The notes beneath the pieces were generated by a model. That model saw only the letters and a program-made list of their open reading frames with translations. It made no database searches and was not told the DNA's origin. The translations under genes and the position numbers were made by a program. Of a stretch of DNA of 64,000 nucleotides, positions 21,038 to 44,071 are shown in pieces. The stretch is from Kofleriaceae bacterium (lineage in GTDB: Bacteria > Myxococcota_A > Polyangia > Haliangiales > Haliangiaceae), in assembly GCA_018057825.1 (NCBI GenBank), contig JAGPCY010000042.1:1-64000 (forward strand), read 5' to 3'. Each line of letters opens with the position of its first letter. Position 1 is the stretch's first letter.

Positions 21038-21057
21038 GCCGGCGGCGCGCCGCGATC

Positions 21058-21063
21058 TATACT
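21058..21063 (+). promoter_or_regulatory. -10 box of the FHA-kinase operon
   Basis: TATACT is followed by six bases and GTG 21070, so transcription is predicted to begin at the start codon. Confidence 0.45.
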
Positions 21064-21069
21064 CGCGCG

Positions 21070-22248
21070 GTGAGCTTCCTCCGCCAGCTCTGGTCCTCGG
21101 ACCTGCGGGCCGCGCGCGCGGCCGAGGCGGCCGGTGACCCCGACGCGGCCGCGACCCACTACGGGCTGGCCGGCGATCGCGAGGGCGCGGTGCGCATGCA
21201 CCTGGCGCGGGCGGCGCGGGCCGCCGATCGGCTGACCGAGATCGCGTGCCTACGCGACGCGCTGCACTGGGCCGGCGACGAGCCGCCGCTCGTGGCTCGG
21301 ACCTCGGCGGCGCTGGGTCGCGCGCTGGCGGCCAAGGTCAAGGCCGAGGGCGTGGCCACCGCGCGCGATCGCGAGCGCCTGCGCGAGGCCGCGCAGCTCC
21401 TGGTCGCGGGCGGCGCGCATCGCGAGGCCGGCGAGGCCTATCGCGCGGTCGGCGATCTGGCGGCGGCCGCGGCCGCGTTCTCGGACGCCGGGTTGATCGA
21501 CAAGGTCGAGGCCACGCTCGGCGAGGACGAGGCCCGGGCCGCGCGCGAGCAGAGCGCCCGCGCGGCCTTCGCCGACTACCAGCTCGCGCTGAGCCTGGGC
21601 CGGCGCGGCGAGGCCAAGGCCGCGCTCATCGCCAGCCTGACCGCCGAGCCGTCGGACGATCGCCAGCGCCTGCTCGACGCGCTGTCGGCTGAGCTGATCA
21701 CCGGCGGCCGGGTCGAGCTGCGGCCGCGCGGGGGCGACCCGGTGATCGTCACGGCGCGCGCGGTGGTCGGCCTCGGCCGCGACGCGGTGTGCGAGCTGCC
21801 GCTACGGACCGGCGGGGTGTCGCGCCGCCACGCCGAGCTCGAGGTCAGCCCCGAGGGCTTCACGGTGCGCGACGCCGGCTCGCGCAACGGCACGCTGATC
21901 GGCGGGCTGCCGGTCGCCGGCCGGGTGCCGCTCGTCGAGCGCGGCGCGGTCGCGCTGGGCGAGGACTGCCGCCTCGACTACCAGGTCGTCGACGGCGCGC
22001 TGTACCTGCGGGTCGCGACCGGGCTCGATCGCGGCCGCCAGCTCGTGGTGACGCGGCCCGGGGTCGCGGTCGCGCTGGCGCCGGCCGGGCTGGCCTGCCA
22101 GGTCCGCTTCGTCGACGGCTCACCGTGGCTGGGCCGGACCGACGGGCCGTTGACGCTGGGCTCGACCAAGATCGGCGCCGGCCAGGTCCAGCTCATCGTC
22201 GGCGACGTGGTGACCTGGGACGACGTGCGGATCGACGTGACGGCATGA
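21070..22248 (+). CDS. FHA domain protein
   Basis: The 392-aa cytosolic protein has an Ala-rich helical N-terminal half (about 1-205), TPR-like, then a forkhead-associated domain at about 215-305: Val-Val-Gly-Leu-Gly-Arg-Asp-Ala, Gly-Val-Ser-Arg-Arg-His-Ala-Glu-Leu and Asp-Ala-Gly-Ser-Arg-Asn-Gly-Thr-Leu carry the conserved Arg, Ser, His and Asn that bind phosphothreonine. A further beta-rich part completes the C-terminus and may be a second, degenerate FHA fold (Gly-Leu-Asp-Arg-Gly-Arg-Gln-Leu). It overlaps the downstream Ser/Thr kinase gene by four bases (ATGA), so it is probably a partner or substrate of that kinase. Confidence 0.85.
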   Translation: MSFLRQLWSSDLRAARAAEAAGDPDAAATHYGLAGDREGAVRMHLARAARAADRLTEIACLRDALHWAGDEPPLVARTSAALGRALAAKVKAEGVATARDRERLREAAQLLVAGGAHREAGEAYRAVGDLAAAAAAFSDAGLIDKVEATLGEDEARAAREQSARAAFADYQLALSLGRRGEAKAALIASLTAEPSDDRQRLLDALSAELITGGRVELRPRGGDPVIVTARAVVGLGRDAVCELPLRTGGVSRRHAELEVSPEGFTVRDAGSRNGTLIGGLPVAGRVPLVERGAVALGEDCRLDYQVVDGALYLRVATGLDRGRQLVVTRPGVAVALAPAGLACQVRFVDGSPWLGRTDGPLTLGSTKIGAGQVQLIVGDVVTWDDVRIDVTA

Positions 22249-23672
22249 GCTGGTGGTCGCGGTTGTTCGGTCGTCCGGCGGCGCCCGCGCCGGCCCCGCC
22301 GCCCGCCGAGCCGGCGGTCTTGCGCGACGAGGACGACGTCTGGCTCGAGGCCCTGGCCGCGGCCTGCGGCGACGGCCGTCGCCACGACGAGCTAGCCGCG
22401 CCCGACACCCTGGCCCACCTCGACCGCTTGTGGCAGCGCGGCCACGAACGCCTGGCCACCGAGTGGCTCGAGAAGCTGATCGCGATCCCCGAGGCGCCGG
22501 CGGCCGCGGTCATCGACCTGCGCGCGGTCCTGGTCGATCGCCTCGAGGCCCGGGCCGAGCTCGAGCGCGCGGTGCCGCACCTGCGGGCCCTGGTCGACGT
22601 CGCCGGCCACGCGGTCCGGGCCAACTACCTTTTGGCCGAGCACTTCCGCAAGCTCGGCGACGACGCCGCGGCGCTGCGCCACTACGAGGCGGTCCTGGCC
22701 CGCGACGTCGACTACCCCAACGTGCGGGCGCGGGTCGAGCGCCTGCGGGCGGCGCGCGGCCTGACCGCGCCGTCGGTCGGCGAGACCATCGCCGGGGCCG
22801 ACGTCGTCGGCATCGGCGCCGGCGCGCGCTACCTCCTGGTCCGCGAGCTCGGGCGCGGCGCCACCGGCGTGGTCTACCTGGCCCGCGATCGCGAGCTCGA
22901 GCGCGAGGTCGCGGTCAAGCTCTTGCACCCGCACCTGGCCGGCGCCGGTCAGGCCGCGGCGGTCGAGCGCTTCTTCGACGAGGCCCGGCTGATGGCGTCG
23001 CTGCGCCACCCCAACGTGGTCGCGGTCCTCGACCTCGAGGAGCGAGCCCGGCGCCTGGTGCTCGAGCTGGCCGCCGGCGGCACCTTGCGCGACCTCCTGC
23101 GCGACCGCGGCCCGCGGACCGCGCGGCGGACCCTCGAGCGCCACGTGCAGATCTTGTCGGCGCTGGCGGCCGCGCACCAGCGCGGCGTGATCCACCGCGA
23201 CGTGAAGCCCGGCAACCTGATGTTCCGGCGCGACCCCGATCATCCCGGCGTCGAGATCATGCTGGGCGACTTCGGCGTGGCCCAGCTCCCGAGCGCCGAG
23301 CCGGCGCCGACCGGCGGCCGGCGCGCCGCCGAGGCGGTCGGCACCCTGGCCTACATGGGCCCGGCCCAGCGGCGCGGCGAACCCGCGGTGCCCGCCGACG
23401 ATCTCTACGCCGCGGCGGTGGTGCTCTACGAGATGCTGACCGGCCACCATCCGTGGTCGCGCGAGCAGCTCCTGGCCGGGACCCGGAGCCGCGGCGACTT
23501 CGCGCTGCCACCCGAGGTGCGCGCGCCGCTGCCGCCGGCGCTGGCAGCCGCGCTCCAGGATCACCTCGACCGCCTGGGCGATCCCGAGGGCGCGGCCCGA
23601 CCGACCACGGCGGCGGCGCTGGCCGAGGCCCTGGCCCTGCGCACCGAGGCGATCGCGCTGGCGCTGGCGTGA
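22245..23672 (+). CDS. Serine/threonine protein kinase (Hanks type)
   Basis: The 475-aa kinase has a helical N-terminal region of about 185 residues (TPR-like) and a C-terminal kinase domain. It shows Gly-Arg-Gly-Ala-Thr-Gly-Val-Val-Tyr as P-loop (about 205-213), Val-Ala-Val-Lys-Leu-Leu with the ATP Lys, HRDVKPGNLMF as catalytic loop (about 318-328), Asp-Phe-Gly-Val-Ala as DFG, and Gly-Thr-Leu-Ala-Tyr-Met-Gly-Pro-Ala-Gln, where the usual Ser-Pro-Glu of the activation segment is Gly-Pro-Ala. That change removes the conserved Glu and may alter substrate docking. No transmembrane helix is seen, so it is probably cytosolic. It is coupled to the FHA gene. Confidence 0.88.
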   Translation: MSWWSRLFGRPAAPAPAPPPAEPAVLRDEDDVWLEALAAACGDGRRHDELAAPDTLAHLDRLWQRGHERLATEWLEKLIAIPEAPAAAVIDLRAVLVDRLEARAELERAVPHLRALVDVAGHAVRANYLLAEHFRKLGDDAAALRHYEAVLARDVDYPNVRARVERLRAARGLTAPSVGETIAGADVVGIGAGARYLLVRELGRGATGVVYLARDRELEREVAVKLLHPHLAGAGQAAAVERFFDEARLMASLRHPNVVAVLDLEERARRLVLELAAGGTLRDLLRDRGPRTARRTLERHVQILSALAAAHQRGVIHRDVKPGNLMFRRDPDHPGVEIMLGDFGVAQLPSAEPAPTGGRRAAEAVGTLAYMGPAQRRGEPAVPADDLYAAAVVLYEMLTGHHPWSREQLLAGTRSRGDFALPPEVRAPLPPALAAALQDHLDRLGDPEGAARPTTAAALAEALALRTEAIALALA

Positions 23673-26006: not shown

Positions 26007-28262
26007 TCACCCAGGCAGGGCGATCACCGTGAGCCCCGGGTCAGCCCGGGGCGCTTCGTCCGCGGTGACGATCCCGATCGCCCGATCGCGCAGCCCGGGG
26101 TCGGCGGCCATGCGCACCGCGAGCGGCGCGACCACGACCTCCTCGAGCAGTCGGCGCAGCGGCCGGGCCCCGAGGACCGGATCGACGCCGCGGGCCGCCA
26201 GGGTGGCGCGCGCCGCCGGGGACGCCCACAAGGTCAGGCCGCGGCCGAGCATGCCGGGCCGGGTCCGCAGCTTGGCGAGCTCGAGGTCGACGATCTGCTC
26301 GATCGCCGCCGCGCGCAGGCGGTGGAAGCCGACGACGTGATCGAGGCGCGCGGTGAACTCGGGTCGGAAGTGCGCGCGCACCGCAGCCGCGTAGTCCGGC
26401 TCCGCGGCGCCCGCGAACCCGACGCCGCCGCCCCGGGTCACGCCCAGGTTCGAGGTCATCACGATCACGCACATGCGCAGATCGACCAGCCGACCGAGGG
26501 CGTCGGTCAGCCGGCCTTCGCCGAGGACCGCGAGGAGCAGATCGAAGACCTCGGGGTGGGCCTTCTCCAGCTCGTCGAGCAGGATCACCGCCAGCGGCTG
26601 CCGACGCACCGCCTCGACCAGCGAGGTGCCGCCGGCGCCGACCTCGAGGAGCCGGGTCGCCGACCCCGGCGTCATGTACTCCGATAGATCGATCCGGATC
26701 AGGCGCTCGCCGTCGCCGAACAGGTAGCGCGCGATCTGCTTGGCCAGCTCGGTCTTGCCGACCCCGGTGGGACCGACGAAGAGGAGCGACGCCACCGGCC
26801 GCTCGGGGTCGTCGAGGCCGACGCGGAACCGGACCAGGGCCCGCGCCACGACCGCGCACGCGTGATCCTGCCCGACGACCCCGGCGGCCAAGGCCTCCGC
26901 GATCGCTGCCGCGCCGATCGGGCGATCGTCGGCGACCAGCTCGACCGGCAACCCCGACCACCGGGCGAAGGCGGCGGTCACGTCGCGCGGCAGGACCATC
27001 GTCGGCGGCGGGCTGGCGTCCTGACACCACCAGTCGAGGAGCGCCAGGGCCTTGCCGGGGAAGCGCTGATCGCGGCGGAACCCGGCGCACAGCGCCAGGA
27101 GCCGTCGCACCGCCGCCGGGTGCAGCTCGACCTCGGGGCGCTTGCGCCGCAGGTAGGCCAGGGCGATCGGCGCGACCTCGTCGGGGCCGGGCTCGTCGAG
27201 GCGGACCACCGCGAAGGCGTCGACCAGCGCCGGGTGGCGGCGGCGCAGGCGGGCCAGCTCCGACGGCGAGCACTCGGCGATCAGCCGCAGCTCGCCGGCG
27301 ACCACCGCCGGCAACCACAGCTCGGCGATCGACGCGCCGTCGCCCTGGGCCGCGGCCAGCTCGGCCAGGCGATCGACGAACAGCCAGTCGTCGGTGCCGC
27401 CCAGCTCGCGCGCCACCGCCAGGCAGCGCTCCTGCCACATGCCGAGGTAGGTCATGCCGGCGGTCAGGTGGGCCGCCGAGGTCGCCCACAGCCGTCGCCG
27501 CCGCGGCCCGTCGCCGAGGTGCTTGGCCAGGCGGCGGACCAGCGCGCTCTTGCCGACCCCGGGCTCGCCGACCAGGAGCACCGAGCGCGGCGGCACAGCG
27601 TCGACAGCGGCCACGACCGAGGTGGCCGCGGCCAGCTCGCCGACCGGCGGCGCGAGCTGGCGCCGCCGCAGCTTGCCGGTCCAGTCGTCGGCGACCGCGG
27701 CCACGGTCGGCGGCGGCGGGTCGGCGGCGTCGTCGTCGCGATCGTCGTCGGCGGCGAACCGGGCCGGCGCCCACGGCTCGATCCACTCGCGGACCCCGGC
27801 GCGCAGATCGAGGACGTCGTGGGGCGCGGTGCCGAGGACCGCCGCCGCGACCGCGGCGCGGATCACCTCGGCGGCGTCGTCGAGGGCCTCGAGGGCCAGC
27901 GACCAGCCGAACCGCGGCACCAGGACCCGCACGACCGGGCCGTCGTCGTAGGCGGCGAAGGCCACGCGCAGCGGCACGACCCGGCTGCCGATCACCCAGG
28001 TGCCCTCGGCGGCGACCCGCGGCCGCAGCTCGATCGCGACCCGGCGCAGGCCGAGCTCCTCGGTGAAGCGGTACAGGTCGAGGTCGCCGTCGGCCGCCGC
28101 CGCGACCAGGGCCGGCTCGAGCGCGGCCAGCACCTCGTCGACGGTGTCGCCCCACGCCGCCGGCGCCGGCGGCGCGAACAGCCGCGCCCGCCGCCGCATC
28201 AGCACCCCGACCAGCTTGCCGCCGTCGTGCTCGGTCAGGAACACCCGGAAGCTCGGCTTCAT
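26007..28262 (-). CDS. ClpA/ClpB-like double AAA+ ATPase 1 (751 aa)
   Basis: Third and last gene of a coupled ATPase operon. Residues 1-150 form a beta-rich N-domain that is not the usual Clp-N repeat but resembles those of its two neighbours in layout. AAA+ module 1: Walker A Gly-Glu-Pro-Gly-Val-Gly-Lys-Ser (232-239), pore-loop-like Thr-Tyr-Leu-Gly (271-274), and degenerate Walker B Trp-Leu-Phe-Val-Asp-Arg-Leu lacking the catalytic Glu. Module 2 is complete: Walker A GPTGVGKT (497-504), Walker B ILLDELEKAHPEV (560-572), sensor 1 Thr-Ser-Asn-Leu-Gly, Arg finger in FRPEFTARLD and sensor 2 Gly-Ala-Arg-Pro-Leu-Arg-Arg near 698-704. Unlike the neighbours it has no long C-terminal extension. Probably an unfoldase or disaggregase subunit that works with the other two; no protease partner or ClpP-binding loop is visible. 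Confidence 0.82.
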   Translation of the reverse strand: MKPSFRVFLTEHDGGKLVGVLMRRRARLFAPPAPAAWGDTVDEVLAALEPALVAAAADGDLDLYRFTEELGLRRVAIELRPRVAAEGTWVIGSRVVPLRVAFAAYDDGPVVRVLVPRFGWSLALEALDDAAEVIRAAVAAAVLGTAPHDVLDLRAGVREWIEPWAPARFAADDDRDDDAADPPPPTVAAVADDWTGKLRRRQLAPPVGELAAATSVVAAVDAVPPRSVLLVGEPGVGKSALVRRLAKHLGDGPRRRRLWATSAAHLTAGMTYLGMWQERCLAVARELGGTDDWLFVDRLAELAAAQGDGASIAELWLPAVVAGELRLIAECSPSELARLRRRHPALVDAFAVVRLDEPGPDEVAPIALAYLRRKRPEVELHPAAVRRLLALCAGFRRDQRFPGKALALLDWWCQDASPPPTMVLPRDVTAAFARWSGLPVELVADDRPIGAAAIAEALAAGVVGQDHACAVVARALVRFRVGLDDPERPVASLLFVGPTGVGKTELAKQIARYLFGDGERLIRIDLSEYMTPGSATRLLEVGAGGTSLVEAVRRQPLAVILLDELEKAHPEVFDLLLAVLGEGRLTDALGRLVDLRMCVIVMTSNLGVTRGGGVGFAGAAEPDYAAAVRAHFRPEFTARLDHVVGFHRLRAAAIEQIVDLELAKLRTRPGMLGRGLTLWASPAARATLAARGVDPVLGARPLRRLLEEVVVAPLAVRMAADPGLRDRAIGIVTADEAPRADPGLTVIALPG

Positions 28263-31200
28263 TGACGGCTCCAGCGCACGTGCCACAGCGCGCGCACGAT
28301 CTCGGCCAGGCTGGCCCCGGTCAGGCGCGTCGCCCAGCCCAGGCCAAAGTCCTCGACGTCGGCGGTGATCCCGTCGCCAGCCCGGGCCGCGGGCGCGTAG
28401 GTCATGGTCCGCACCGCCGGCAGCAGGGCCTCGGGGTTGGCCGGGGCGGCGCGGCCAGCAGCGACCGCGGCCTCGAAGGCCGTCACCCGCGCGACGTGCT
28501 CGGTGAGCAGCGCGGCGAGCTCGGCCGCGCCGGGGCGGACCTCGACCCGATAGACCTCGGGCGCGTCGACCAGCGAGCGGAAGAAGTGGGTGCCGTGCTC
28601 GGCCCGGTAGGCGGCGCGGGCGAACACCTCGCGGACCACGAAGCCGCGGGTGACGTCGCCGACCGCCGGCGCCACCAGCTCGCGGAGCCGGCCGTCGACG
28701 CCGCGGGCCATGGCTTGATCGGCGATCCCGCGCAAGGCCTCGAGGAGCCCCCAGCCGAGCCCGGGTCGGGTCTCGCCGACCGGCGTGACCAAGACGGTCA
28801 CCGCGTGGGCCTCGGGATCGGTGAGCTCGTCGGTGTGGGCCAGGAGCAGCGTGGCCCGGGCCAGCGCGGCGAGGAGGACCGGCTGCGGCGAGGCCGCGCG
28901 GGTCCGCCGATCGAGGCTGCGGCGATCGAAGGCCGGTCCGGGACGGGGCCCCGACCAGCCGGCGACCGAGCGGCGCTCGGGCCGCCAGCCCTCGAGATCG
29001 TGGAGCTCGTAGCCCTCGGTCGCCGCCGGCAGCCGGCGCTGGCCGGCCAGCGCGGCCCGCAGCTCGACCAGCTCGTCGCCGTAGCGCTCGATGAAGTAGC
29101 GGACCTCGTCGGCGTGCGGCGCGCCGCGCACCGCGGCCAGGGCGCGGCCGACCGCGTCGTCGGCCAGCGCGGCGTCGATCCGGCGGGCCATCGCCTCGGC
29201 CAGCGGCGCCAGCGCCGCCGCCGCCAGCTCGCGGGCGGCGATGAGCGGATACTCGCCGCCGCGGGTCGCCAGCTCGGGGACCTGCTCGAGCTGGACCGCG
29301 ATCGCGCCGGCGTCGTCGCGCAAGCGCGCCACCGTCATGCGCGCCGGCGGCGCCGTGGTCAGGGCCTCGGCCAGCGCGGTCGCGACGTGATCCTCGAGCC
29401 AGCGCTTGACCGTGCGGGCGCCGAACCGCGGATCGAAGGCCTGGGCCACCGCGCGCTCGCGCACCGCGCGCCCGGCGTAGACGAAGACGTCGCGCTCGCG
29501 CAGGCCGCGCCGGCCCAGGAGCTTGGCCAGCTCCTTGTCGACCACCCGCGCCGCGGTCTCGGCGGTGAGCGGACGAAACGGCACCACCCGATCGATCCGG
29601 TTCCACAGCTCGGGCGGGAAGAACTCGCGCACCGCGGTCGCGATCTGCCCGAGCACGGCGGCCGCGCCGTCGCCGAAGCCGATCGGCGCGCCGACCCGGG
29701 CCCCCAGGTTCGAGGTCATGACGATCACGGCGTGGCGGAAGCTCGCGACCTCGCCGTCGGCGTCGGTCAGGCGGCCCTCGTCGAAGAGCTGGAGGAGCAG
29801 GCCGAGCACCGACGGGTGGGCCTTCTCGATCTCGTCGAGCAGGACCACCGCGAACGGCTGCTCGCGGATGCGCGAGGTGAGGAGCCCGGCCGGCGCGAAC
29901 CGATCGCCGACCAGGCGGGCCACCGCGTCGGGCCCGGCCAGCTCGCTCATGTCGAAGCGGACCAGGCGCTGGACGTCGCCGTAGAGGTAGCTGGCCAGGG
30001 CGGTGGCCAGCTCGGTCTTGCCGGTGCCGGTCGGCCCGGTGAACAGGTACACGCCCAGGGTGCGGCCGGGGTCGGCGAGCCCGGCCCGGACCCGCACGAC
30101 GACGTCGGTCGCGACCTCGACCGCCTCGTCTTGCCCGATGACCCGGGCCGCGAAGTGGGCGCGGACCTCGGCGGGATCGAGGGGCTCGTCGAGCGTGATC
30201 AGCCGCTCGGCCAGGCCGGTGTCGCGCGCCACCGCGGCCACCGCGTCGGCCGGCGTGACCTCGACCCGCGCCCCCGACGCGCCGGGCGGCGCCACCGCCA
30301 CCTTGCGCAAGAGCTCGATGGCCGCGCCGGGCATCGCCGTCCACGGGTAGAGCGCCGCCGCCAGCTCGGTGGCGGTGCGCGGCGTGAACGGGTGGATCTC
30401 GACCGGGCGCTCGGCCTCGAGGCGACGGACCTCGGCCAGGAGCAACGCCGCGGTGTCGGCCGCGCCGGTCGGCTCGACCGCGACCCGGGCGAACAGGGTC
30501 GCGAAGGTCGGGGCGTCATCCTCGAGGCGCGCCCACTGCTCGCGGGTCGCGGTCGCGACCACCACCAGCTCGCCGCGCTGGATCGGACCGTGGAGAAAGT
30601 CGGCGAACGAGCGCTCGGACTGCCGGGTCACGCCGAGCCGGCCGAACAGGTGCAGGTCGTCGAACCACAGGATGCCGCGATGGCGGCGGGCCTCGGTCAC
30701 CAGCGCCAGCAGCCGCTCCTCCCAGTCACCCAGGTAGCTCATGCCGGCGATCAGGCGCTGGCCGGCCAGGCGCCACACCCGGTGGATGCGATCGGTATTG
30801 CGGTGGAGCACCCAGCCGTCGTCGTCAAGGCGATCGCCGATCCATCGCGCCAGCAGCGTCGAGCGTCCGGATCCCGGACGACCGATGAGCACGGTCGGGC
30901 GCGGTCGTTCGCCGCCCAGCAAGCGGCGGAGCTGCCGGCGGTAGGTCGGGCGCGGCACGCCGAGCGGCAAGGTGCCGTCGATCGCGCGCGCGGTCTGATC
31001 GATCGCGAGCTGGGCCAGGCGATCGCTCGGGCCGTGGCCGAGGCCGGCGCGCTGCTTGCCCGCCCGCGCCGCCTGGGCGCGATCGAGGAGCGTCTTGGGC
31101 GCCAGCTCGAGGCCGAGCTGGATCAGCCGCTCCTTGCCGACGCTCTTGCGGGCCTCGATCGCGGCGCTGCCGTCGTGGCGCCAGGCCCGGCGGACGAAGT

Positions 31201-31597
31201 GCGGCGCCAGGCGTTCGGCCTCGGCGGCGTCCTCGGCGTCGAACCAGGCCTGCGGATCGGAGGGGTGAAACACCAGCAGGCGCTGCCCGGCCGAGGTGAA
31301 CCAGCGCGGCTCGAGCACGAACGGGAAGCGCCCGCCGATCCGGCCGCCGCGGCCCGGCAACTGCAGATCGAGCGACAGCGGGTGCAGCCGCGTGCCGGGC
31401 GCGCGCTCGAGGAGCTCGAGCTCGACCGGCTCGAGGGCGCGCACCGCGTCGCCCAGGGCCTTGGCCAGCGCGTCGCGCAGGCGCAGCTCGCTCTTGCCGG
31501 CCAGCGGCGCGACCAGCCCCGGGCGGACCAGGGGGATCCAGGTCAGCGCGCCCTCGTGGCGGCGCTCGAACACCGTGACGGTGAAGGTCCGCTTCAC
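28259..31597 (-). CDS. ClpA/ClpB-like double AAA+ ATPase 2 with release-factor-like C-terminus (1112 aa)
   Basis: Second gene of the operon; GTG 31597 overlaps the stop of gene 1 of the operon and its own stop overlaps the next ATG. A beta-rich N-domain (1-140) precedes module 1. There Walker A is Gly-Arg-Pro-Gly-Ser-Gly-Arg-Ser (239-246), with Arg in place of the essential Lys, the pore loop is Ser-Tyr-Leu-Gly (287-290), and Walker B is Trp-Phe-Asp-Asp-Leu-His. Module 2 is intact: GPTGTGKT (521-528), VVLLDEIEKAHPSV (584-597), Thr-Ser-Asn-Leu-Gly, an Arg finger in Leu-Trp-Asn-Arg-Ile-Asp, and Phe-Gly-Ala-Arg-Thr-Val-Lys-Arg. Residues about 790-1112 contain a helical stretch, then a segment whose order and spacing recall a class I release factor PCRF domain (Ala-Tyr-Arg-Ala-Glu-His-Gly-Thr-His near 996-1004) and the release factor C-terminal end (Val-Arg-Thr-Met-Thr-Tyr near 1062). 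No GGQ is present. The similarity is weak on its own and is supported by the paralogue. Confidence 0.78.
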   Translation of the reverse strand: MKRTFTVTVFERRHEGALTWIPLVRPGLVAPLAGKSELRLRDALAKALGDAVRALEPVELELLERAPGTRLHPLSLDLQLPGRGGRIGGRFPFVLEPRWFTSAGQRLLVFHPSDPQAWFDAEDAAEAERLAPHFVRRAWRHDGSAAIEARKSVGKERLIQLGLELAPKTLLDRAQAARAGKQRAGLGHGPSDRLAQLAIDQTARAIDGTLPLGVPRPTYRRQLRRLLGGERPRPTVLIGRPGSGRSTLLARWIGDRLDDDGWVLHRNTDRIHRVWRLAGQRLIAGMSYLGDWEERLLALVTEARRHRGILWFDDLHLFGRLGVTRQSERSFADFLHGPIQRGELVVVATATREQWARLEDDAPTFATLFARVAVEPTGAADTAALLLAEVRRLEAERPVEIHPFTPRTATELAAALYPWTAMPGAAIELLRKVAVAPPGASGARVEVTPADAVAAVARDTGLAERLITLDEPLDPAEVRAHFAARVIGQDEAVEVATDVVVRVRAGLADPGRTLGVYLFTGPTGTGKTELATALASYLYGDVQRLVRFDMSELAGPDAVARLVGDRFAPAGLLTSRIREQPFAVVLLDEIEKAHPSVLGLLLQLFDEGRLTDADGEVASFRHAVIVMTSNLGARVGAPIGFGDGAAAVLGQIATAVREFFPPELWNRIDRVVPFRPLTAETAARVVDKELAKLLGRRGLRERDVFVYAGRAVRERAVAQAFDPRFGARTVKRWLEDHVATALAEALTTAPPARMTVARLRDDAGAIAVQLEQVPELATRGGEYPLIAARELAAAALAPLAEAMARRIDAALADDAVGRALAAVRGAPHADEVRYFIERYGDELVELRAALAGQRRLPAATEGYELHDLEGWRPERRSVAGWSGPRPGPAFDRRSLDRRTRAASPQPVLLAALARATLLLAHTDELTDPEAHAVTVLVTPVGETRPGLGWGLLEALRGIADQAMARGVDGRLRELVAPAVGDVTRGFVVREVFARAAYRAEHGTHFFRSLVDAPEVYRVEVRPGAAELAALLTEHVARVTAFEAAVAAGRAAPANPEALLPAVRTMTYAPAARAGDGITADVEDFGLGWATRLTGASLAEIVRALWHVRWSRQ

Positions 31598-34500
31598 GGC
31601 GCGACCTCGCCGTCGTCGCCGTCGTCGGCGGCGGCCTGGCCGAGCGCCGTCGGGTACAGCTCGTCGACGGTCAGGCCGCGCGCCAGCCCGGCGGCGATCA
31701 CCGCCAGGCCGATCTCCTCGAGGCGCTCGCCGTGCTCGGCGACCGGCACCTCGAGCGGCGCACCGGCGACCTCGACCTGCTCGCGATAGACCCGGTCGAC
31801 GGCGCCGCGCGGGCTCGTCGCCGGCGCCGCCAGCGTGGCCAGCTCGCGCCATTGCTCGTCGGTGAACTCGGTGGACAGGGCCATCACCCGCACCACCAGG
31901 TGGCAGGGATCGATCTTGGCCACGCCGTGGAAGCGATGGACCCCGGCCTCGAGGCCGAGCACCACTGCCGCGCCCGGCCCGCGGATCCGCACGAGGATGT
32001 TGCGCAGGCCGCCGCCCGGCGTGATCTTGCCGGCCAGCCACGCGCGATCGCGCGGCGGCCCCCAGACGCGCTCGACCGGCCAGCTCGGCGCGCGATCGTT
32101 GTGGCCGTGACCGGTGATCGTCCAACCGCGCCGCGCCGCGGTCGCCAGGACGCTCCCCAGCCAGCTCGCCAGCGCCGCCGGGTGCTCGGGCGCCGACAAG
32201 GTCAGGGTGATCTCGTCGCGGGCCTCGCGCCGCGCCACCGCCAACCAGAACATCGCCCGGGCGAAGTCGCGCGCCAGCGCCGGCACCTCGGCCACCGTCG
32301 CCGCGACGTCGTCGCCGGCCAGGGCCGCGGCGATCGCCAGCTCCTCGACGACCGCCAGCTCGCCCTGGGCCGCGGTCGCCGCCGCCCAGGCCTGGTCGAG
32401 GCGCGCCAGCTCGATCGCCAGCTGCTGGACCTGGGCGCTGGCGAGGGCCGGGCGACGCTTGCCCTTGCGACCGGCGCCGGGCTGGGCGTCGCCGCGCGCG
32501 AGCTGAGCGCGCAGCCAGTCGCGCTGGGTCCGGACGTCGGTCGCCAGATCGCGCGCCATCCAGCCATCGGCCTCGCGCCGGGCCGCCGCGGCGAGGAGCG
32601 CGCCCTTGGCGTTGCGCCGACCACCGGCGCCGCCGCGCCGCCACACCGCGACGGTCACGCCGTGGGCCGACGGGCTGGCCCCGAGGTGCGCGCCCGACGG
32701 GAGGTCGAGGTCGGCCTCCTCGCCGTCGGCGCGGACCACCACCAGCGCGCCGTGGGCGTCCTTGCCGAGCCGCGCGAGCAGCCGGGCCAGGGGCGTGACC
32801 AGGGCGGCGTCGAGGTGGCGGCGCAGGGCCCGCGCGCCCCAGGCCGCGGCGTAGCCGCCGGCCGCCAGCGTGGCGATCGCGCGATCGCTCACGTCGAGGC
32901 CGAGGTTGGCCTGGACCAGGCCGCGCCGCTCGGCCAGCTCGCCGATCGCGAGGCGGGCCACCGCGGCGATCTGCTCGCCGTCGAGGTGATGGAACGGGAT
33001 GATCGCGTCGAGTCGATTGAGCAGCTCGGGCCGGAAGGCCGCGGTGACCGCGGCCCGATAGCGGGCCAGCTCGCGGGTCCGCTCGTCGGTGGCGACCCGC
33101 GCCGCCAGGCCGATCGGCTGGGCGCGCTCGTGGCCCCCCAGGTTCGACGTCAGGATCAGGATCGCGTTGTGGAAGTACGCGGTGCGGCCGCGGGCGTCGG
33201 TCAGGCGGCCCTCGCCGGCGACCTGCAAGAGCAGATCGTGGACCGCCGGGTGGGCCTTCTCGATCTCGTCGAGCAAGACCACCGCGAACGGTTGCTGCCG
33301 CAGGCGCGCGGTCAGGAGGCCGTCGCCCGACGCGCTGCCGCGGATCAGGCGCTCGGCCGCCCACGGATCGGCGTACTCGCTCATGTCGAAGCGGACCAGG
33401 CGGGCCTCATCGCCGAACAGGAGCTGGGCCAGGCGCTTGGCCAGCTCGGTCTTGCCGACCCCGGTCGGCCCGGCGAACAGAAACGTCGCCAGCGGTTTGT
33501 CGGCCGGCTGGAGCTGGGCCTTGACCGTGCACAGCACCTCGGCGACCCGGGCCACCGCCTCGGCCTGCCCGACCATGCGGCGGCCCAGGGCCTCGCACAG
33601 CTCGGCGGCGAGCAGCGGTCGATCGTCGCGCAGGAGCATGGCCGGCACGCCGGTGGCGGCGGCGAAGCCGTCGTAGACCGCGTCGGCGCCGAGCAGGCGG
33701 GGCGCGCCGTCGGGCCCGACCTCACCGTCGGCGGCGGCGCGCAGCTCGTCGAGCAGCTCGACCGCCTTGCCGGGGAACGCCCGGTACGGCAGGTACCGGC
33801 GCGCGAGCTCGACCGCGGCCGCGATCGCCCGCGCGTCGAGCTGCGGTCGACGCGCCTCGGCCCGACGCCAGTGCGCCGCCCGCGCGGTCAAGGCCGCGAT
33901 CGTCGTCGCCGGATCGAGGGGCGCGATCGCGAGCTGGGTCATCGCGCCGACCAGCGCGACCTCGCGGCGCTCGGCGCGCGCCAGGGCCGCCGGGGTCAGC
34001 TCGGCCACCACCCGGACCCGCCCCTCGACGACGAACCGCCGCACGATCGCGGTCAAGGCCAGCCCGCCGTCCTCGACCCGCTCGCGAAACAGGCTGGCGA
34101 AGTCCTCGAAGTAGAGCGCCGCGTCGAGGGCCTCGGCGGCCGCGAACAGCTCGGTCACCCGCTTCTCGGCCTCGCCGAAACCCGACGCGCCGGCCACCAG
34201 GTGGGCCAGGGTCACGACCCAGGTCGGGCGCGCGGTCGCGGTCCGGCCCCAGGCGAGGACCAGCGCGGTCTTGCCGACGCCGGCGTCGCCGCACAAGAGC
34301 ACCGCGAGCCGATCGCGTCCCCCCAGGAGCGCGTCCAGGCTCGCGGCCTCGCGCTCGCGGCCGACCAGGGGCGCCGCGCCACCGCGCACGCGGTCCGCCA
34401 ACGGCGCCGCCAGCTCGTCGAGGGTCGCGCGGGCCCGGCGACGGGCCTCGGCCGCCAGGCGGGCCGCGGTCGCCGCCTCGGTGGCCGCGAAGCGCACCGT

Positions 34501-34995
34501 CACCGGCAGCGGCGCCACGGTCAGCTCGAGGGGCGGCAACAGCCGCCGCCAGTCGTCGCCGTCGAGCTCGGCGGCCGCCGCCAGCCGGGCCAGCTCCCGC
34601 GCTGCCACCTCCGCCAGCTCGTCCTTGCGGTCGACGAAGAACGCCGCGCCCAGCGCCGGCACCAGCGCCAGGCGATCGCGACCGTCGCCGTAGGGGATGA
34701 GCACGCACGCCACCTCGACCGGGCGCGGCGGGCGCGCGCGGGTCGGCGCCCCGGGATCGAGGGCGACCTCGAAGGCGGTGGCCTCGACGCCGGCGGGCAG
34801 GAAGTAGCGCGCGACCGCGGCCGGCGCCTCGGTGGCCAGGTGATGCGCGAGGAAGACCCGGACCTCCTCGCGGGCGCCGTCGTCGTCGCCGAACGCGCAC
34901 AGCTCGGGGGCGACGACCGGCGCGCAGGTCGTCGCGCCGGACGGGACCACCCGCTCGATCGTCCAGGTGGTCACGATCGACTGGCGCTCGCTCAT
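31594..34995 (-). CDS. ClpA/ClpB-like double AAA+ ATPase 3 fused to a PCRF (release factor) domain, no GGQ (1133 aa)
   Basis: First gene of the operon. N-domain 1-170 is beta-rich. Module 1: Walker A Gly-Asp-Ala-Gly-Val-Gly-Lys-Thr (236-243), a degenerate pore region (Ala-Ser-Gly-Phe-Gly-Glu), and Walker B Leu-Tyr-Phe-Glu-Asp-Phe. Module 2 is complete: GPTGVGKT (509-516), VVLLDEIEKAHPAV (572-585), Thr-Ser-Asn-Leu-Gly, Arg finger at 661 (Leu-Leu-Asn-Arg-Leu-Asp) and Gly-Ala-Arg-Ala-Leu-Arg-Arg (720-726). After a linker, residues 800-920 are helical like release factor domain 1. Residues 927-1026 match the PCRF fold: Arg-Asp-Glu-Ile-Thr-Leu-Thr, Arg-Gly-Trp, then LVRIRGPGAAVVLGLEAGVH(R) ending in the hallmark Gly-Val-His-Arg. 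The GGQ peptidyl-hydrolysis loop is absent. ATG 34995 is used; GTG 35013 is an alternative start closer to the promoter. Confidence 0.82.
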   Translation of the reverse strand: MSERQSIVTTWTIERVVPSGATTCAPVVAPELCAFGDDDGAREEVRVFLAHHLATEAPAAVARYFLPAGVEATAFEVALDPGAPTRARPPRPVEVACVLIPYGDGRDRLALVPALGAAFFVDRKDELAEVAARELARLAAAAELDGDDWRRLLPPLELTVAPLPVTVRFAATEAATAARLAAEARRRARATLDELAAPLADRVRGGAAPLVGREREAASLDALLGGRDRLAVLLCGDAGVGKTALVLAWGRTATARPTWVVTLAHLVAGASGFGEAEKRVTELFAAAEALDAALYFEDFASLFRERVEDGGLALTAIVRRFVVEGRVRVVAELTPAALARAERREVALVGAMTQLAIAPLDPATTIAALTARAAHWRRAEARRPQLDARAIAAAVELARRYLPYRAFPGKAVELLDELRAAADGEVGPDGAPRLLGADAVYDGFAAATGVPAMLLRDDRPLLAAELCEALGRRMVGQAEAVARVAEVLCTVKAQLQPADKPLATFLFAGPTGVGKTELAKRLAQLLFGDEARLVRFDMSEYADPWAAERLIRGSASGDGLLTARLRQQPFAVVLLDEIEKAHPAVHDLLLQVAGEGRLTDARGRTAYFHNAILILTSNLGGHERAQPIGLAARVATDERTRELARYRAAVTAAFRPELLNRLDAIIPFHHLDGEQIAAVARLAIGELAERRGLVQANLGLDVSDRAIATLAAGGYAAAWGARALRRHLDAALVTPLARLLARLGKDAHGALVVVRADGEEADLDLPSGAHLGASPSAHGVTVAVWRRGGAGGRRNAKGALLAAAARREADGWMARDLATDVRTQRDWLRAQLARGDAQPGAGRKGKRRPALASAQVQQLAIELARLDQAWAAATAAQGELAVVEELAIAAALAGDDVAATVAEVPALARDFARAMFWLAVARREARDEITLTLSAPEHPAALASWLGSVLATAARRGWTITGHGHNDRAPSWPVERVWGPPRDRAWLAGKITPGGGLRNILVRIRGPGAAVVLGLEAGVHRFHGVAKIDPCHLVVRVMALSTEFTDEQWRELATLAAPATSPRGAVDRVYREQVEVAGAPLEVPVAEHGERLEEIGLAVIAAGLARGLTVDELYPTALGQAAADDGDDGEVAP

Positions 34996-35223: not shown

Positions 35224-36372
35224 CTACGGCGCGGCGGCGGGCGGCGGACCGAAGGTGGCGCGGACCCAGGCCTGAAACTCCGGCTCGGTCAGCTCGGCGG
35301 CCTTGCGGCAGGCCTCGGTGACGTGGCCCGGGAAGTCCTTGTCGGCCATCCATCGCAGGTAGCTGCGCTCGATCTGCGACAGCGGCGTGCCGCTGTGCTT
35401 GCCGAACGCCAGGATCACGCGCTCGCCTTGCCACTGCAGGTGGCGCGACGGACCGACCCAGTTGGGCCGCGCCGGATCGCACACCCCGGCGACCCCGCGC
35501 CAGTCGTGATCGTCGAGGCCGAAGGTCCGCAACATCCCGGCCAGCACCCGCCCGGTGGCGGCGACGTCGGCCTCGGCCGAGTGGGCCGACGCGAAGCCGG
35601 TGCCGACGAAGCGCAGGTGGGCGTGGGACAGGCTGCGCGGCTCGCACTGCTGCCACAGCCGGAACGGATCGACGATGGTCTTGGCGGACCAGTCGGGCAG
35701 CGGCCGACCGATCCGCTCGAACTCGGCCGACACCATGTCGATGTCGAAGATCAGGTTGTAGCCGACCACGACCTCGGCGGCGGCGAAGACCGCGAAGATC
35801 TCGTCGGCGATCTCGCCGAACCGTGGGCAGTCGGCCAGGTCGTCCATCGAGATGCCGTGGACCGCCTGGGCCCCGGGCGAGATCGCGACGTCGGGCTTGA
35901 TCCGCCAGGTGCGGTGCGGCGCGGCCTCGGACAGGCCGAACTGCACGCACAGCTCGATGACCTGATCGCGGCGGCGATCGGTGCCGGTGGTCTCGACGTC
36001 GAAGACGATGACCCCACGCTCGGGGCGGACCTCGGCGCGCGGGGCGAGCTCGACCGCCGCCGCCTCGACGCGCGCGACCGGCGCCTCGACGCGCGCCACC
36101 GGCGCCTCGACGCGCACGACCGGCGCCTCGACGCGCGCCACCGCCGCCTCGACCGGCACCGCGGGCAGCTCCGGCGCCACCGCCGGCACCGCGGTCGCGA
36201 TCGCCGCCTCGGCCACCGCCACCGCCTTGCGCTTGTTCTTCGGCAGACCCGGCCGGGTCGTGGCCTTGGTCCGGGGCGCCGGGGGCGGCACCAGCTCGAC
36301 CTGCACCGGCTCGGGCCGGGGCGTCGGCACCGCCCAGGCGGCACCGAAAAGCGGCAAGGTCTCGCTGCGCAT
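35224..36372 (-). CDS. DEDD-family 3'-5' exonuclease with DUF3820-like C-terminus
   Basis: The 382-aa protein has a low-complexity N-terminal region (1-115) with about four copies of a seven-residue unit Val-Ala-Arg-Val-Glu-Ala-Pro, then a DnaQ/RNase T-type exonuclease domain (about 117-290). Motif I is Val-Phe-Asp-Val-Glu-Thr-Thr-Gly, motif II Gly-Tyr-Asn-Leu-Ile-Phe-Asp and motif III His-Ser-Ala-Glu-Ala-Asp-Val, giving the four acidic residues and the His of the DEDDh class. The C-terminal part, Phe-Gly-Lys-His-Ser-Gly-Thr-Pro-Leu through Tyr-Leu-Arg-Trp-Met, resembles DUF3820 (fused to exonuclease domains elsewhere). It probably trims DNA or RNA 3' ends. It is upstream of, and in the same orientation as, the ATPase operon, though a repeat array and a promoter lie between them. 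Confidence 0.85.
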   Translation of the reverse strand: MRSETLPLFGAAWAVPTPRPEPVQVELVPPPAPRTKATTRPGLPKNKRKAVAVAEAAIATAVPAVAPELPAVPVEAAVARVEAPVVRVEAPVARVEAPVARVEAAAVELAPRAEVRPERGVIVFDVETTGTDRRRDQVIELCVQFGLSEAAPHRTWRIKPDVAISPGAQAVHGISMDDLADCPRFGEIADEIFAVFAAAEVVVGYNLIFDIDMVSAEFERIGRPLPDWSAKTIVDPFRLWQQCEPRSLSHAHLRFVGTGFASAHSAEADVAATGRVLAGMLRTFGLDDHDWRGVAGVCDPARPNWVGPSRHLQWQGERVILAFGKHSGTPLSQIERSYLRWMADKDFPGHVTEACRKAAELTEPEFQAWVRATFGPPPAAAP

Positions 36373-41626: not shown

Positions 41627-41663
41627 TGCAGGCCGGCGCCTGCAGTGCAGGCTGGCCCCTGCA
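41627..41663. repeat. Two tandem 18-bp palindromes, 19-bp period
   Basis: TGCAGGCCGGCGCCTGCA (41627-41644) and TGCAGGCTGGCCCCTGCA (41646-41663) are separated by a single G. Arms are seven and six bases long. Side-by-side palindromes about two helical turns apart suggest paired operator sites or a double hairpin. They lie in the 162-base gap between the giant kinase and the following lipoprotein gene; no other element is seen in the gap. Confidence 0.6.
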
Positions 41664-41755
41664 GGCGGCGCGCGACCACCGGCGAAGATCCGTCGCGCCG
41701 ACGGCACCTTCCCTCGGTCGGAGCGATCGGCGCCGGCCTTGCAAGCGCGGTCGGG

Positions 41756-44071
41756 GTGGCAAACCTCCGCTCGATCGGCATCCCCTGGGCGATCGCGATC
41801 GCGCTGGTGGCGCTCGGCGCCTGTCGCGACGACGACGTCGGCGCGGCGTCGCGCACCTGCTGGATCGACGTCGACGGACGCACGATCTGTGTGGTCGACG
41901 ATGGCGGCCCCGGTCCCGGCGACGACGCGGCGAGCTGCGACGGCGGCGGCGAGCCGACCGGCGACGGCGGCGGCGAGCCCCCGGGCGACGGCGGCGGCGA
42001 GCCTCCCGGCGACGCTCGCGACGGTGGCGATGCCCGCGATGGCGGCGACGCCGGTGACGCGCGCGACGGCGGCCTCGACGCGGTCCCGTGCGAGGTCGAC
42101 GGGTGCGACGGCGGCCCCGGCGACGGCGGCACCGGCGACGGCGGCCCCGGCGATGGCGGCCCCGGCGACGGCGGCACCGACGGCGGCCCCGGCGACGGCG
42201 GCATGGACGGCGGCCCCGGCGACGGCGGCACCGACGGCGGCCCCGGCGACGGCGGCCCCGGCGATGGCGGCATGGACGGCGGCCCCGGCGACGGCGGCAC
42301 CGACGGTGGGCCGACCGACGCCGGCGTCGATGCCCCGCGGGACGCCAGCCCCGACGCGCCCGACGCCGGGACCTGCGGCAACGGGGTGTGCGAGTACACC
42401 GTCGACAACACCGGCACCTGCCCGACGGTCACCGCCGGCAGCGAGACGCCGCAGAACTGCGCGGCCGACTGCAACTGCTGCGACTACAGCATCGACATCT
42501 GCGGGCAGTTCGGCAACGGCACCTGCAACTACGACGAGCTCGAGACCACCTGCACCGGGCGGCGGACCTGGTGCGCGTGGGGCCCCGACCACGTCTCGGA
42601 CTGCTGCGGCGACGGCTACTGCGACGCCGACGCCAAGCACGCGCTGTATCCCGATCGGCCCGGCTGCGGCGCGGCCTCCGGTCCGCCGACCTACGACCGC
42701 GGCCGCAACAACTGCGAGGCCGACCGACCGCTGCGCGAGCAGACCGGCGAGGATCTGATCAACTGTCCGAGCGACTGCCCGTGTGAAGGCGCCAACGGCT
42801 ACGACAGCGGCGCCGACGGGGTCTGTCAGTTCTGCAACGGCGCGCTCGGCGAGTCGTGCGACTTCGGCGCCCAGGACTGGGGCGGCGACGGCGTGCCCAA
42901 GACCTGCGACGACACCTGCGTCAACGACAGCGGCGCCAGCGACTTCGACGGTCGGAGCCGACGGTGGGAGAAGGCCGGGCAGTGCTCGGACTGCGATCCG
43001 TGCACCGATGGCTACGATCCGGCCGGTCAGTTCAACAACGCCCGCTGGGGTCAGGGCGCGGCGACCGAGGGCGCCGGCTGCGATCATCGGGTCGACTGCG
43101 ACGGCAACTTCTCGGGTTGGTGCGCCTGGGGCCCCGACAGCTTCCCCGACTGCTGGAACGACGCCGAGGAGACCTCGACCACCGCCGCGCGGGCCTTCGG
43201 CTTCTGCGACCCCGACGTGGTCCACGTCCGGGGCAGCGGGCGCGGCCAGTACCTGTTCGCCGATCCCAACGGCGACGCGGTCTGGGCCACGAGCTGTCCG
43301 GGCCCGATGATGACGTCGAGCTACACCCTGGTCGCCGGCGAGAACGTCTACAACGGCTACGCCCGTGGGTTCCTCGGCGACCTCGGCCCGTACCGCGACG
43401 CCCCCGAGTTCTTCAGCCTCGACTGCTGCGGCTTCGACCCCGACGGCGACCACGAGCCCGACCCGACGCCGCACCAGGGCGACGGCTTCTCGCCGACCGA
43501 CGAATGCGACGCCGGGACCTGCGTCGATCCGCCCGACGCCGGGCCGGACGCGCCGCCGGACGCCGGACCGGACGCCCCGTGGGACGCCGGCGTCGACGCG
43601 CCGTGGGACGCTGGCGTCGACGCGCCCTGGGACGGCGGCCCGGACGCGCCGTGGGACGCCGGCGTCGACGCGCCGTCGGATGCCCGCGACGGCGGCGATG
43701 CCGGCGATGCCGGTGATGCCGGTGACGCCCGCGACGGCGGCGATGCGGGCGATGCCGGCGATGCCCGCGACGGCGGCGATGCCGGTGACGCCGGTGACGC
43801 CCGCGATGGCGGCGACGCTGGCGATGCCCGCGACGGCGGCGATGCCGGCGATGCCCGCGACGGCGGCGGCCCCGGCGATGGCGGCGCCGGCGACGGCGGG
43901 CCCTCGCACTGCTCGCCGGTCACCGCCGACGCCAGCACGGCGCGCGAGAGCCAGCGCACCCTCGACGGCGGCTGCGGCTGTGGCGCCGGCGGCGCGCCGA
44001 CCTCGACCTGGGCGGTGGGCGGCCTGGCCGCGGCGCTCCTGGCCCGCCGCCGCCGCCGGAGGACGCCGTGA
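41756..44071 (+). CDS. Cys-rich lipoprotein with MYXO-CTERM tail and Gly/Asp repeats (771 aa)
   Basis: GTG 41756 is chosen because it starts a signal with hydrophobic WAIAIALVALGAC and a lipobox-like Leu-Gly-Ala-Cys. The mature protein has two low-complexity tracts: Asp-Gly-Gly-Pro-Gly-Asp-Gly-Gly units (about 110-185) and Arg-Asp-Gly-Gly-Asp-Ala-Gly-Asp-Ala units (about 640-715), with Pro-Asp-Ala-Gly-x-Asp-Ala-Pro-Trp repeats before the latter. Between them, about 420 residues contain many Cys pairs (Cys-Gly-Asp-Gly-Tyr-Cys, Cys-Asp-Pro-Cys). The C-terminus has Gly-Cys-Gly-Cys-Gly-Ala, a hydrophobic helix and Arg-rich end, the MYXO-CTERM sorting signal. It is surface exposed; a calcium- or metal-binding role is possible from the Asp content. 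No enzymatic domain is recognised. Confidence 0.8.
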   Translation: MANLRSIGIPWAIAIALVALGACRDDDVGAASRTCWIDVDGRTICVVDDGGPGPGDDAASCDGGGEPTGDGGGEPPGDGGGEPPGDARDGGDARDGGDAGDARDGGLDAVPCEVDGCDGGPGDGGTGDGGPGDGGPGDGGTDGGPGDGGMDGGPGDGGTDGGPGDGGPGDGGMDGGPGDGGTDGGPTDAGVDAPRDASPDAPDAGTCGNGVCEYTVDNTGTCPTVTAGSETPQNCAADCNCCDYSIDICGQFGNGTCNYDELETTCTGRRTWCAWGPDHVSDCCGDGYCDADAKHALYPDRPGCGAASGPPTYDRGRNNCEADRPLREQTGEDLINCPSDCPCEGANGYDSGADGVCQFCNGALGESCDFGAQDWGGDGVPKTCDDTCVNDSGASDFDGRSRRWEKAGQCSDCDPCTDGYDPAGQFNNARWGQGAATEGAGCDHRVDCDGNFSGWCAWGPDSFPDCWNDAEETSTTAARAFGFCDPDVVHVRGSGRGQYLFADPNGDAVWATSCPGPMMTSSYTLVAGENVYNGYARGFLGDLGPYRDAPEFFSLDCCGFDPDGDHEPDPTPHQGDGFSPTDECDAGTCVDPPDAGPDAPPDAGPDAPWDAGVDAPWDAGVDAPWDGGPDAPWDAGVDAPSDARDGGDAGDAGDAGDARDGGDAGDAGDARDGGDAGDAGDARDGGDAGDARDGGDAGDARDGGGPGDGGAGDGGPSHCSPVTADASTARESQRTLDGGCGCGAGGAPTSTWAVGGLAAALLARRRRRRTP

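Follow-up and report, generated by a model that had tools for sequence, protein, structure and literature searches.

Why should an Hsp100-like ATPase end in what looks like part of a class I release factor? This question is raised by a locus of a Kofleriaceae bacterium (GCA_018057825.1, contig JAGPCY010000042.1), of which the first 64,000 nucleotides, here called the window, were analysed. Genes A, B and C at this locus each encode a double AAA+ ATPase of the Hsp100/Clp type (Pfam AAA_2 at E 1e-37 or better, and ClpB_D2-small). A and B each carry a C-terminal extension of about 370 aa, and C carries none. The genes are placed as follows:

31594..34995, minus strand: gene A, Hsp100-like double AAA+ ATPase with a C-terminal release-factor-like module (1133 aa; ATG at 34995, stop at 31594)
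28259..31597, minus strand: gene B, Hsp100-like ATPase whose release-factor-like module is the second of the operon and more diverged than that of A (1112 aa)
26007..28262, minus strand: gene C, Hsp100-like ATPase without a C-terminal head (751 aa)

The stop of A and the start of B share four bases (GTGA), as do the stop of B and the start of C (ATGA). Because of these overlaps, A, B and C very probably form a single transcript with coupled translation. Myxococcota conserve A-B(-C) as a unit: A adjoins B in all 20 neighbourhoods fetched from this phylum and C comes next in 16, the four in which C was not seen being one contig end (L064) and three apparent absences (L066, L068 and L075). These neighbourhoods contained no fourth conserved gene beyond A-B-C, and no conserved translation gene lies nearby. 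The N-terminal domains of the three proteins are mutually homologous (E 1e-7 between A and B, 6e-7 between A and C). That of A has no match in Pfam or among PDB sequences, and that of C has no PDB sequence match.

34381..34995, minus strand: N-terminal domain of A (residues 1-205), homologous to its counterparts in B and C
30953-31597, minus strand: N-terminal domain of B, homologous to those of A and C
27648-28262, minus strand: N-terminal domain of C, homologous to those of A and B

A DnaQ-type 3'-5' exonuclease gene lies just upstream of A (35224-36372, minus strand, after a gap of 229 bp). It also adjoins A at one locus from the same genus (L058) and at no other locus. Elsewhere in the window, an FHA-domain protein (20710-22248, plus strand) is followed by a protein kinase-like gene (~22250-23670), a signalling pair unrelated to the operon. 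A secreted-looking protein with long Asp/Gly/Ala/Pro repeats (41645-44071, plus strand) has a C-terminal tail resembling the myxobacterial MYXO-CTERM sorting signal (GCGCG...hydrophobic...RRRRR).

We then focused on the module that raised the question, the C-terminal head of A, which divides as follows:

32230..32628, minus strand: helical bundle resembling release factor domain 1 (A residues 790-922), from profile and model comparison
31876..32229, minus strand: fold resembling release factor domain 2, PCRF (A residues 923-1040), from profile and model, with EAGVHRF at 31930-31950
32050..32082, minus strand: WPVERVWGPPR, an insertion relative to release factors and the best-conserved motif in the A head
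31597..31875, minus strand: C-terminal remainder (A residues 1041-1133), a diverged counterpart of release factor domain 3/4 without GGQ and with low model confidence

The motifs on which the earlier note had based its release factor assignment are present where it had placed them, with RDEITLTL (its Arg-Asp-Glu-Ile-Thr-Leu) at residue 926 (32220), IRGPGA, and EAGVHRF, which contains its EAGVHR, at residue 1016 (31950). Gene A alone matches Pfam PCRF (PF03462) at E 0.058 with 13.6 bits, below the cut-off of 24. Among 28 homologues of A from Myxococcota genomes, seven match this family individually, the best at E 6e-4. When a profile of the A head was searched against all PDB sequences, seven of the eight matches were class I release factors (best E 0.019). 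Comparison of the A-head profile with a profile of 21 RF1/RF2 sequences (hhalign) gave E 8.2e-9 and a probability of 96% over 171 columns, spanning release factor residues 11-194, whereas controls with reversed profiles and with the N-domains of the same proteins gave E 0.1-0.7. The structure prediction agrees with this. An AlphaFold model of A residues 750-1133 reached a pLDDT of 70.8, with a core at 80-94, and when the PDB was searched with it by Foldseek, the 19 top-ranking matches were all release factors or PrfH (best E 1.5e-5). By VIA, the model scored Z 10.8 over 245 residues against RF2 (1gqe), and a few helical-bundle proteins scored high too, as the bundle alone would predict. The part of the model after the bundle still scored Z 9.5 against RF1 (2b3t; 123 residues, 2.9 A; model 174-360 corresponding to RF1 104-353). 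Profile and model thus bore out the release factor match when the check proposed in the earlier note was made, and A residues ~790-1133 are almost certainly homologous to class I release factors. Of the domains claimed there (1 and 2/4), domains 1 and 2 are homologous and kept; the rest has diverged and the domain that should carry GGQ looks eroded. That so many comparisons arise by chance or convergence is barely conceivable. The single-sequence Pfam match is weak, as such a resemblance might be, but profile, fold and intermediate-sequence evidence agree and the reversed controls are clean.

The A head has lost the elements with which a release factor works. In the release-factor context, GGQ occurs in none of the 24 A heads and none of the 21 B heads, in line with its reported absence from the A head, and in 21 of 21 release factors from the same phylum; stray GGQ strings lie elsewhere. 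The codon-reading loop that follows HR (PxT in RF1, SPF in RF2) is likewise absent from the A (0/24) and B heads (0/21) and present in 20/21 release factors, and the tip of helix alpha5 (G-x-G-G-x-E, as a strict pattern) was found in 0/24, 0/21 and 14/21, respectively. By comparison, 19/24 A heads retain the E-x-G-x-H turn of domain 2. Conservation in the A head is highest in WPxxRxWGPPR, a stretch that release factors lack. As GGQ, the PxT/SPF loop and the alpha5 tip motif are all absent, the A head is, judging by its residues, not a working release factor. The genome also encodes its own RF1 and RF2. A role as an alternative release or rescue factor is very improbable: class I homology and the presence of PrfH among the fold matches would fit it, but none of the three motifs that such a factor would need is found in the A or B heads. 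With the codon-reading loop and alpha5 tip lost, codon-directed docking on the ribosome is unlikely as well.

Gene B, next in the operon, adds something that the earlier note did not contain, a second release-factor-like module:

28262..29356, minus strand: C-terminal module of B (residues 748-1112), with E-x-G-x-H at 28586-28600

The B head matches the release factor profile at E 6e-5 in profile-profile comparison and keeps the E-x-G-x-H turn in 18/21 sequences. No release factors were seen in its own PDB and Pfam searches, and an AlphaFold model made from two sequences reached a pLDDT of only 34.5. Its profile matches identify the B head as a second, more diverged release-factor copy.

The origin of both heads is revealed by their relatives. 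We searched 379 genomes, all from Myxococcota, with the A-head profile and found strong A-type matches in 32. The weaker matches included true release factors (L239, L241 and L242), a reciprocal confirmation, and additional Hsp100 proteins ending in a release-factor part. In these single-chain proteins (L231, L233 and L246-L271) the release-factor part is much less eroded than in A and B. With one of them as query, strong members of 900-950 aa were found in about 17 genomes, partial ones counted, and the search for the same fusion elsewhere thus came to about 20 Myxococcota genomes once G077, G180 and G301 were added. Pfam PCRF was over the cut-off in three of the single-chain members scanned (E 2.9e-12, 2.4e-8 and 1.8e-10) and just below it in two more. 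Their heads align with RF1/RF2 at E 1.8e-22 over release factor residues 17-345 (hhalign), whereas the reversed control gave 0.03. Domains 1 and 2 are retained in them, together with an eroded domain 3 (RALKxxGQ in place of the RASGAGGQ of release factors) and the release factor tail (R-Y...KD), and 26 of the 70 conserved release factor columns survive, mostly structural glycines and the E-G-HR turn. A heads match single-chain heads at E 2e-7 and B heads at E 9e-7, the latter over 168 columns that reach the release factor tail. Because the single-chain fusions carry a nearly full-length release factor, these intermediates settle the class I release factor origin of the A and B heads. As they keep a remnant of domain 3, erosion of the GGQ domain looks more likely than a neat excision. 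We had also considered the region after domain 2 of A as domain 4, with domain 3 cleanly deleted, and rejected this, since the single-chain relatives show an eroded domain 3. Taken together, profiles and model show A and B to bear retired class I release factors that kept the fold, with stop-codon reading and peptidyl-tRNA hydrolysis predicted to be lost.

In a tree of D2 domains, the A, B, C and single-chain types form separate clades with 97-100% support, and jointly they are set apart from 20 canonical proteins of the ClpA/ClpB type, also from Myxococcota. The heads are retained across great divergence in A, B and the single-chain types. No conserved neighbour was found for the single-chain genes. 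More diverged Hsp100 clusters of the same family occur at L235, L236 and L237; L236 consists of three consecutive Hsp100 genes, and one L237 protein still matches the release factor profile (4e-4). A scan of genome contigs for a signature DNA pattern, by which alone phyla other than Myxococcota were covered, returned at least six true homologues among the matches listed, all from Myxococcota, with Enhygromyxa salina SWB007, a Sandaracinus MAG and Polyangiaceae MAGs among the named hosts. No A-head homologues were found in plasmids, phages or viral contigs. In six A homologues (L087, L145, L005, L009, L010 and L026) the last ~30 residues match the C-terminal domain of ribosomal protein L7/L12 (PF00542 positions 8-37, E down to 1.1e-7). 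This end is absent from the A of the window, and where it occurs it may be a weak pointer to the ribosomal factor site.

What the heads are attached to bears on what they might do. The two ATPase domains of A are:

33661..34380, minus strand: D1 of A (residues 206-445), which retains Walker A (GDAGVGKT) and has lost the Walker B Glu and the pore aromatic
32761..33660, minus strand: D2 of A (residues 446-745), Walker A and B, Arg finger and sensor-2 kept, GYVG missing, IGL at the ClpP-loop place

A, B and C all align end to end with ClpA, without an M-domain-type gap; D1-D2 (181-753) corresponds to ClpA 157-731, and it aligns with ClpB in two pieces only. The Walker A of D1 is retained for the most part in A, B and C, and the Walker B Glu is replaced (FDDL/FEDF in A, (E/D)DLH in B, VDRL in C); most B and C proteins still have the pore aromatic (YLG), which most A proteins lack. 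In D2, both Walker motifs and the Arg finger are near-invariant in all three. Each of the 20 Clp controls contains the D2 pore loop GYVG, which is absent from the A, B and C sets and equally from the single-chain and diverged members. In ClpA and ClpB this loop (pore loop 1) grips the threaded polypeptide. As the D2 ATPase motifs are intact and GYVG is missing, D2 is expected to hydrolyse ATP and canonical threading by D2 is not expected, with D1 probably only binding ATP. The complete second AAA+ motor described in the earlier note is therefore complete in its ATPase motifs and not in its pore. The suggestion that the protein docks on the ribosome as an unfoldase and pulls nascent chains finds no support in that form, because the D2 pore loop is missing, the head lies at the C-terminal side, which is the exit side of a ClpA/ClpB ring, and the ribosomal A site is far from the nascent-chain exit.

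We propose instead that A, B and C subunits may form one hetero-oligomeric Hsp100 ring of two to three subunit types, as would be expected from their separate clades (each of A, B and C with 100% support), co-occurrence, fixed order and, in the window, 4-base overlaps. The release-factor heads of A and B would be its targeting parts and would bring the ring to the ribosomal factor-binding site or to a usual partner of release factors. Conformational changes driven by ATP cycles in D2 would in turn evict the target or remodel it, without threading a chain through the pore, as the missing D2 loop suggests. In this broad form, a non-threading remodeller docked through its heads at the factor site or to a release-factor partner, the proposal is tentative and has somewhat less than an even chance. 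The narrower version is doubtful, namely that the hetero-oligomer, or its one-protein counterpart elsewhere in Myxococcota, docks at the factor site and there acts without threading on a stalled factor, a ribosomal protein or a subunit, which it would remodel or evict. The single-chain intermediates linked to both A and B, heads conserved over great divergence, D2 motifs intact beside a missing pore loop, and the short match to the C-terminal domain of L7/L12, another element of the factor site, at the end of six A relatives all argue for docking. Against it, no residue known to read stop codons or contact the decoding centre is retained, only the 26 of 70 conserved columns survive even in the single-chain type, the top motif of the A head is not of release factor origin, the head sits where the ring presumably has its exit, and translation genes are missing from the conserved neighbourhood.

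These same losses could mean that the fold was kept as a scaffold only, the head binding a non-ribosomal partner (for assembly, as adaptor, or as substrate of an Hsp100-type remodeller) with no involvement of the ribosome. Such repurposing away from the ribosome is a real possibility, nearly as likely as docking at the factor site. It would account for the loss of all decoding and catalytic elements, for the newness of WPxxRxWGPPR as the strongest conserved motif, for a B head beyond the reach of PDB and Pfam searches and for the lack of translation genes nearby. A bare scaffold, however, would need less than the single-chain relatives keep, which is domains 1 and 2, the GQ remnant and the tail, and the L7/L12-type motif of the six A relatives also speaks against it. 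The motor itself allows a further reading, in which the ring docks ClpP and the head would pick substrates for degradation. At the place of the ClpP loop of ClpA/ClpC, an [IVL]G[FL] tripeptide (IGF/IGL/VGF type) is near-invariant in B and C, variable in A and present in most single-chain members, and the D1 pore aromatic kept in B and C would also suit an unfoldase. Partnership with ClpP is nonetheless improbable: no member has the D2 pore loop, the D1 Walker B Glu is lost, and the C-terminal head would occupy the face that ClpP needs.

In our literature searches, with subscription papers and preprints outside their scope, we found no description of a release factor-Hsp100 fusion. Both parts are of known kinds; their combination appears undescribed, as do the A-B-C unit and the single-chain form. 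Translation termination and ATP-driven remodelling, two central machines, are here joined in a single polypeptide, and the path by which a release factor loses decoding and catalysis can be traced from the single-chain type to A and on to B. The Hsp100 family, for its part, shed its threading loop yet retained the ATPase. Should the heads still be able to locate the ribosome, the family would count as a new AAA+ machine directed at ribosomes; otherwise it would offer a striking example of a translation factor turned into a binding module.

Like RF1 and RF2 (PF03462 PCRF and PF00472), the heads have the domain 1 bundle, the beta-alpha-beta fold of domain 2 and the E-x-G-x-HR turn, and the single-chain relatives retain the release factor tail. 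Unlike them, the A and B heads are without GGQ, PxT/SPF and the alpha5 tip motif and sit behind an Hsp100, and the A head bears the WPxxRxWGPPR insertion. PrfH is a free protein with a GGQ domain. It is an unusual class I release factor that was reduced and put to another use (PMC1586002). PrfH-ribosome structures are among the fold matches of the A head, but that head belongs to an ATPase and PrfH does not. With ClpA and ClpB, the proteins A, B and C share the D1-D2-D2-small architecture and the catalytic motifs of D2. They differ in that no Clp N-domain was found in them, in the absence of an M-domain-type insertion, the D1 Walker B Glu and GYVG, and in forming a separate clade. Torsins remodel without canonical pore loops. 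They are AAA+ proteins of the Clp/Hsp100 kind that form hetero-oligomers with LAP1/LULL1 (PMC4999309). Although eukaryotic, with a single AAA+ domain and no release-factor head, unlike A, B and C, torsins provide a precedent for an Hsp100-like ATPase in a mixed ring that has no canonical threading loop.
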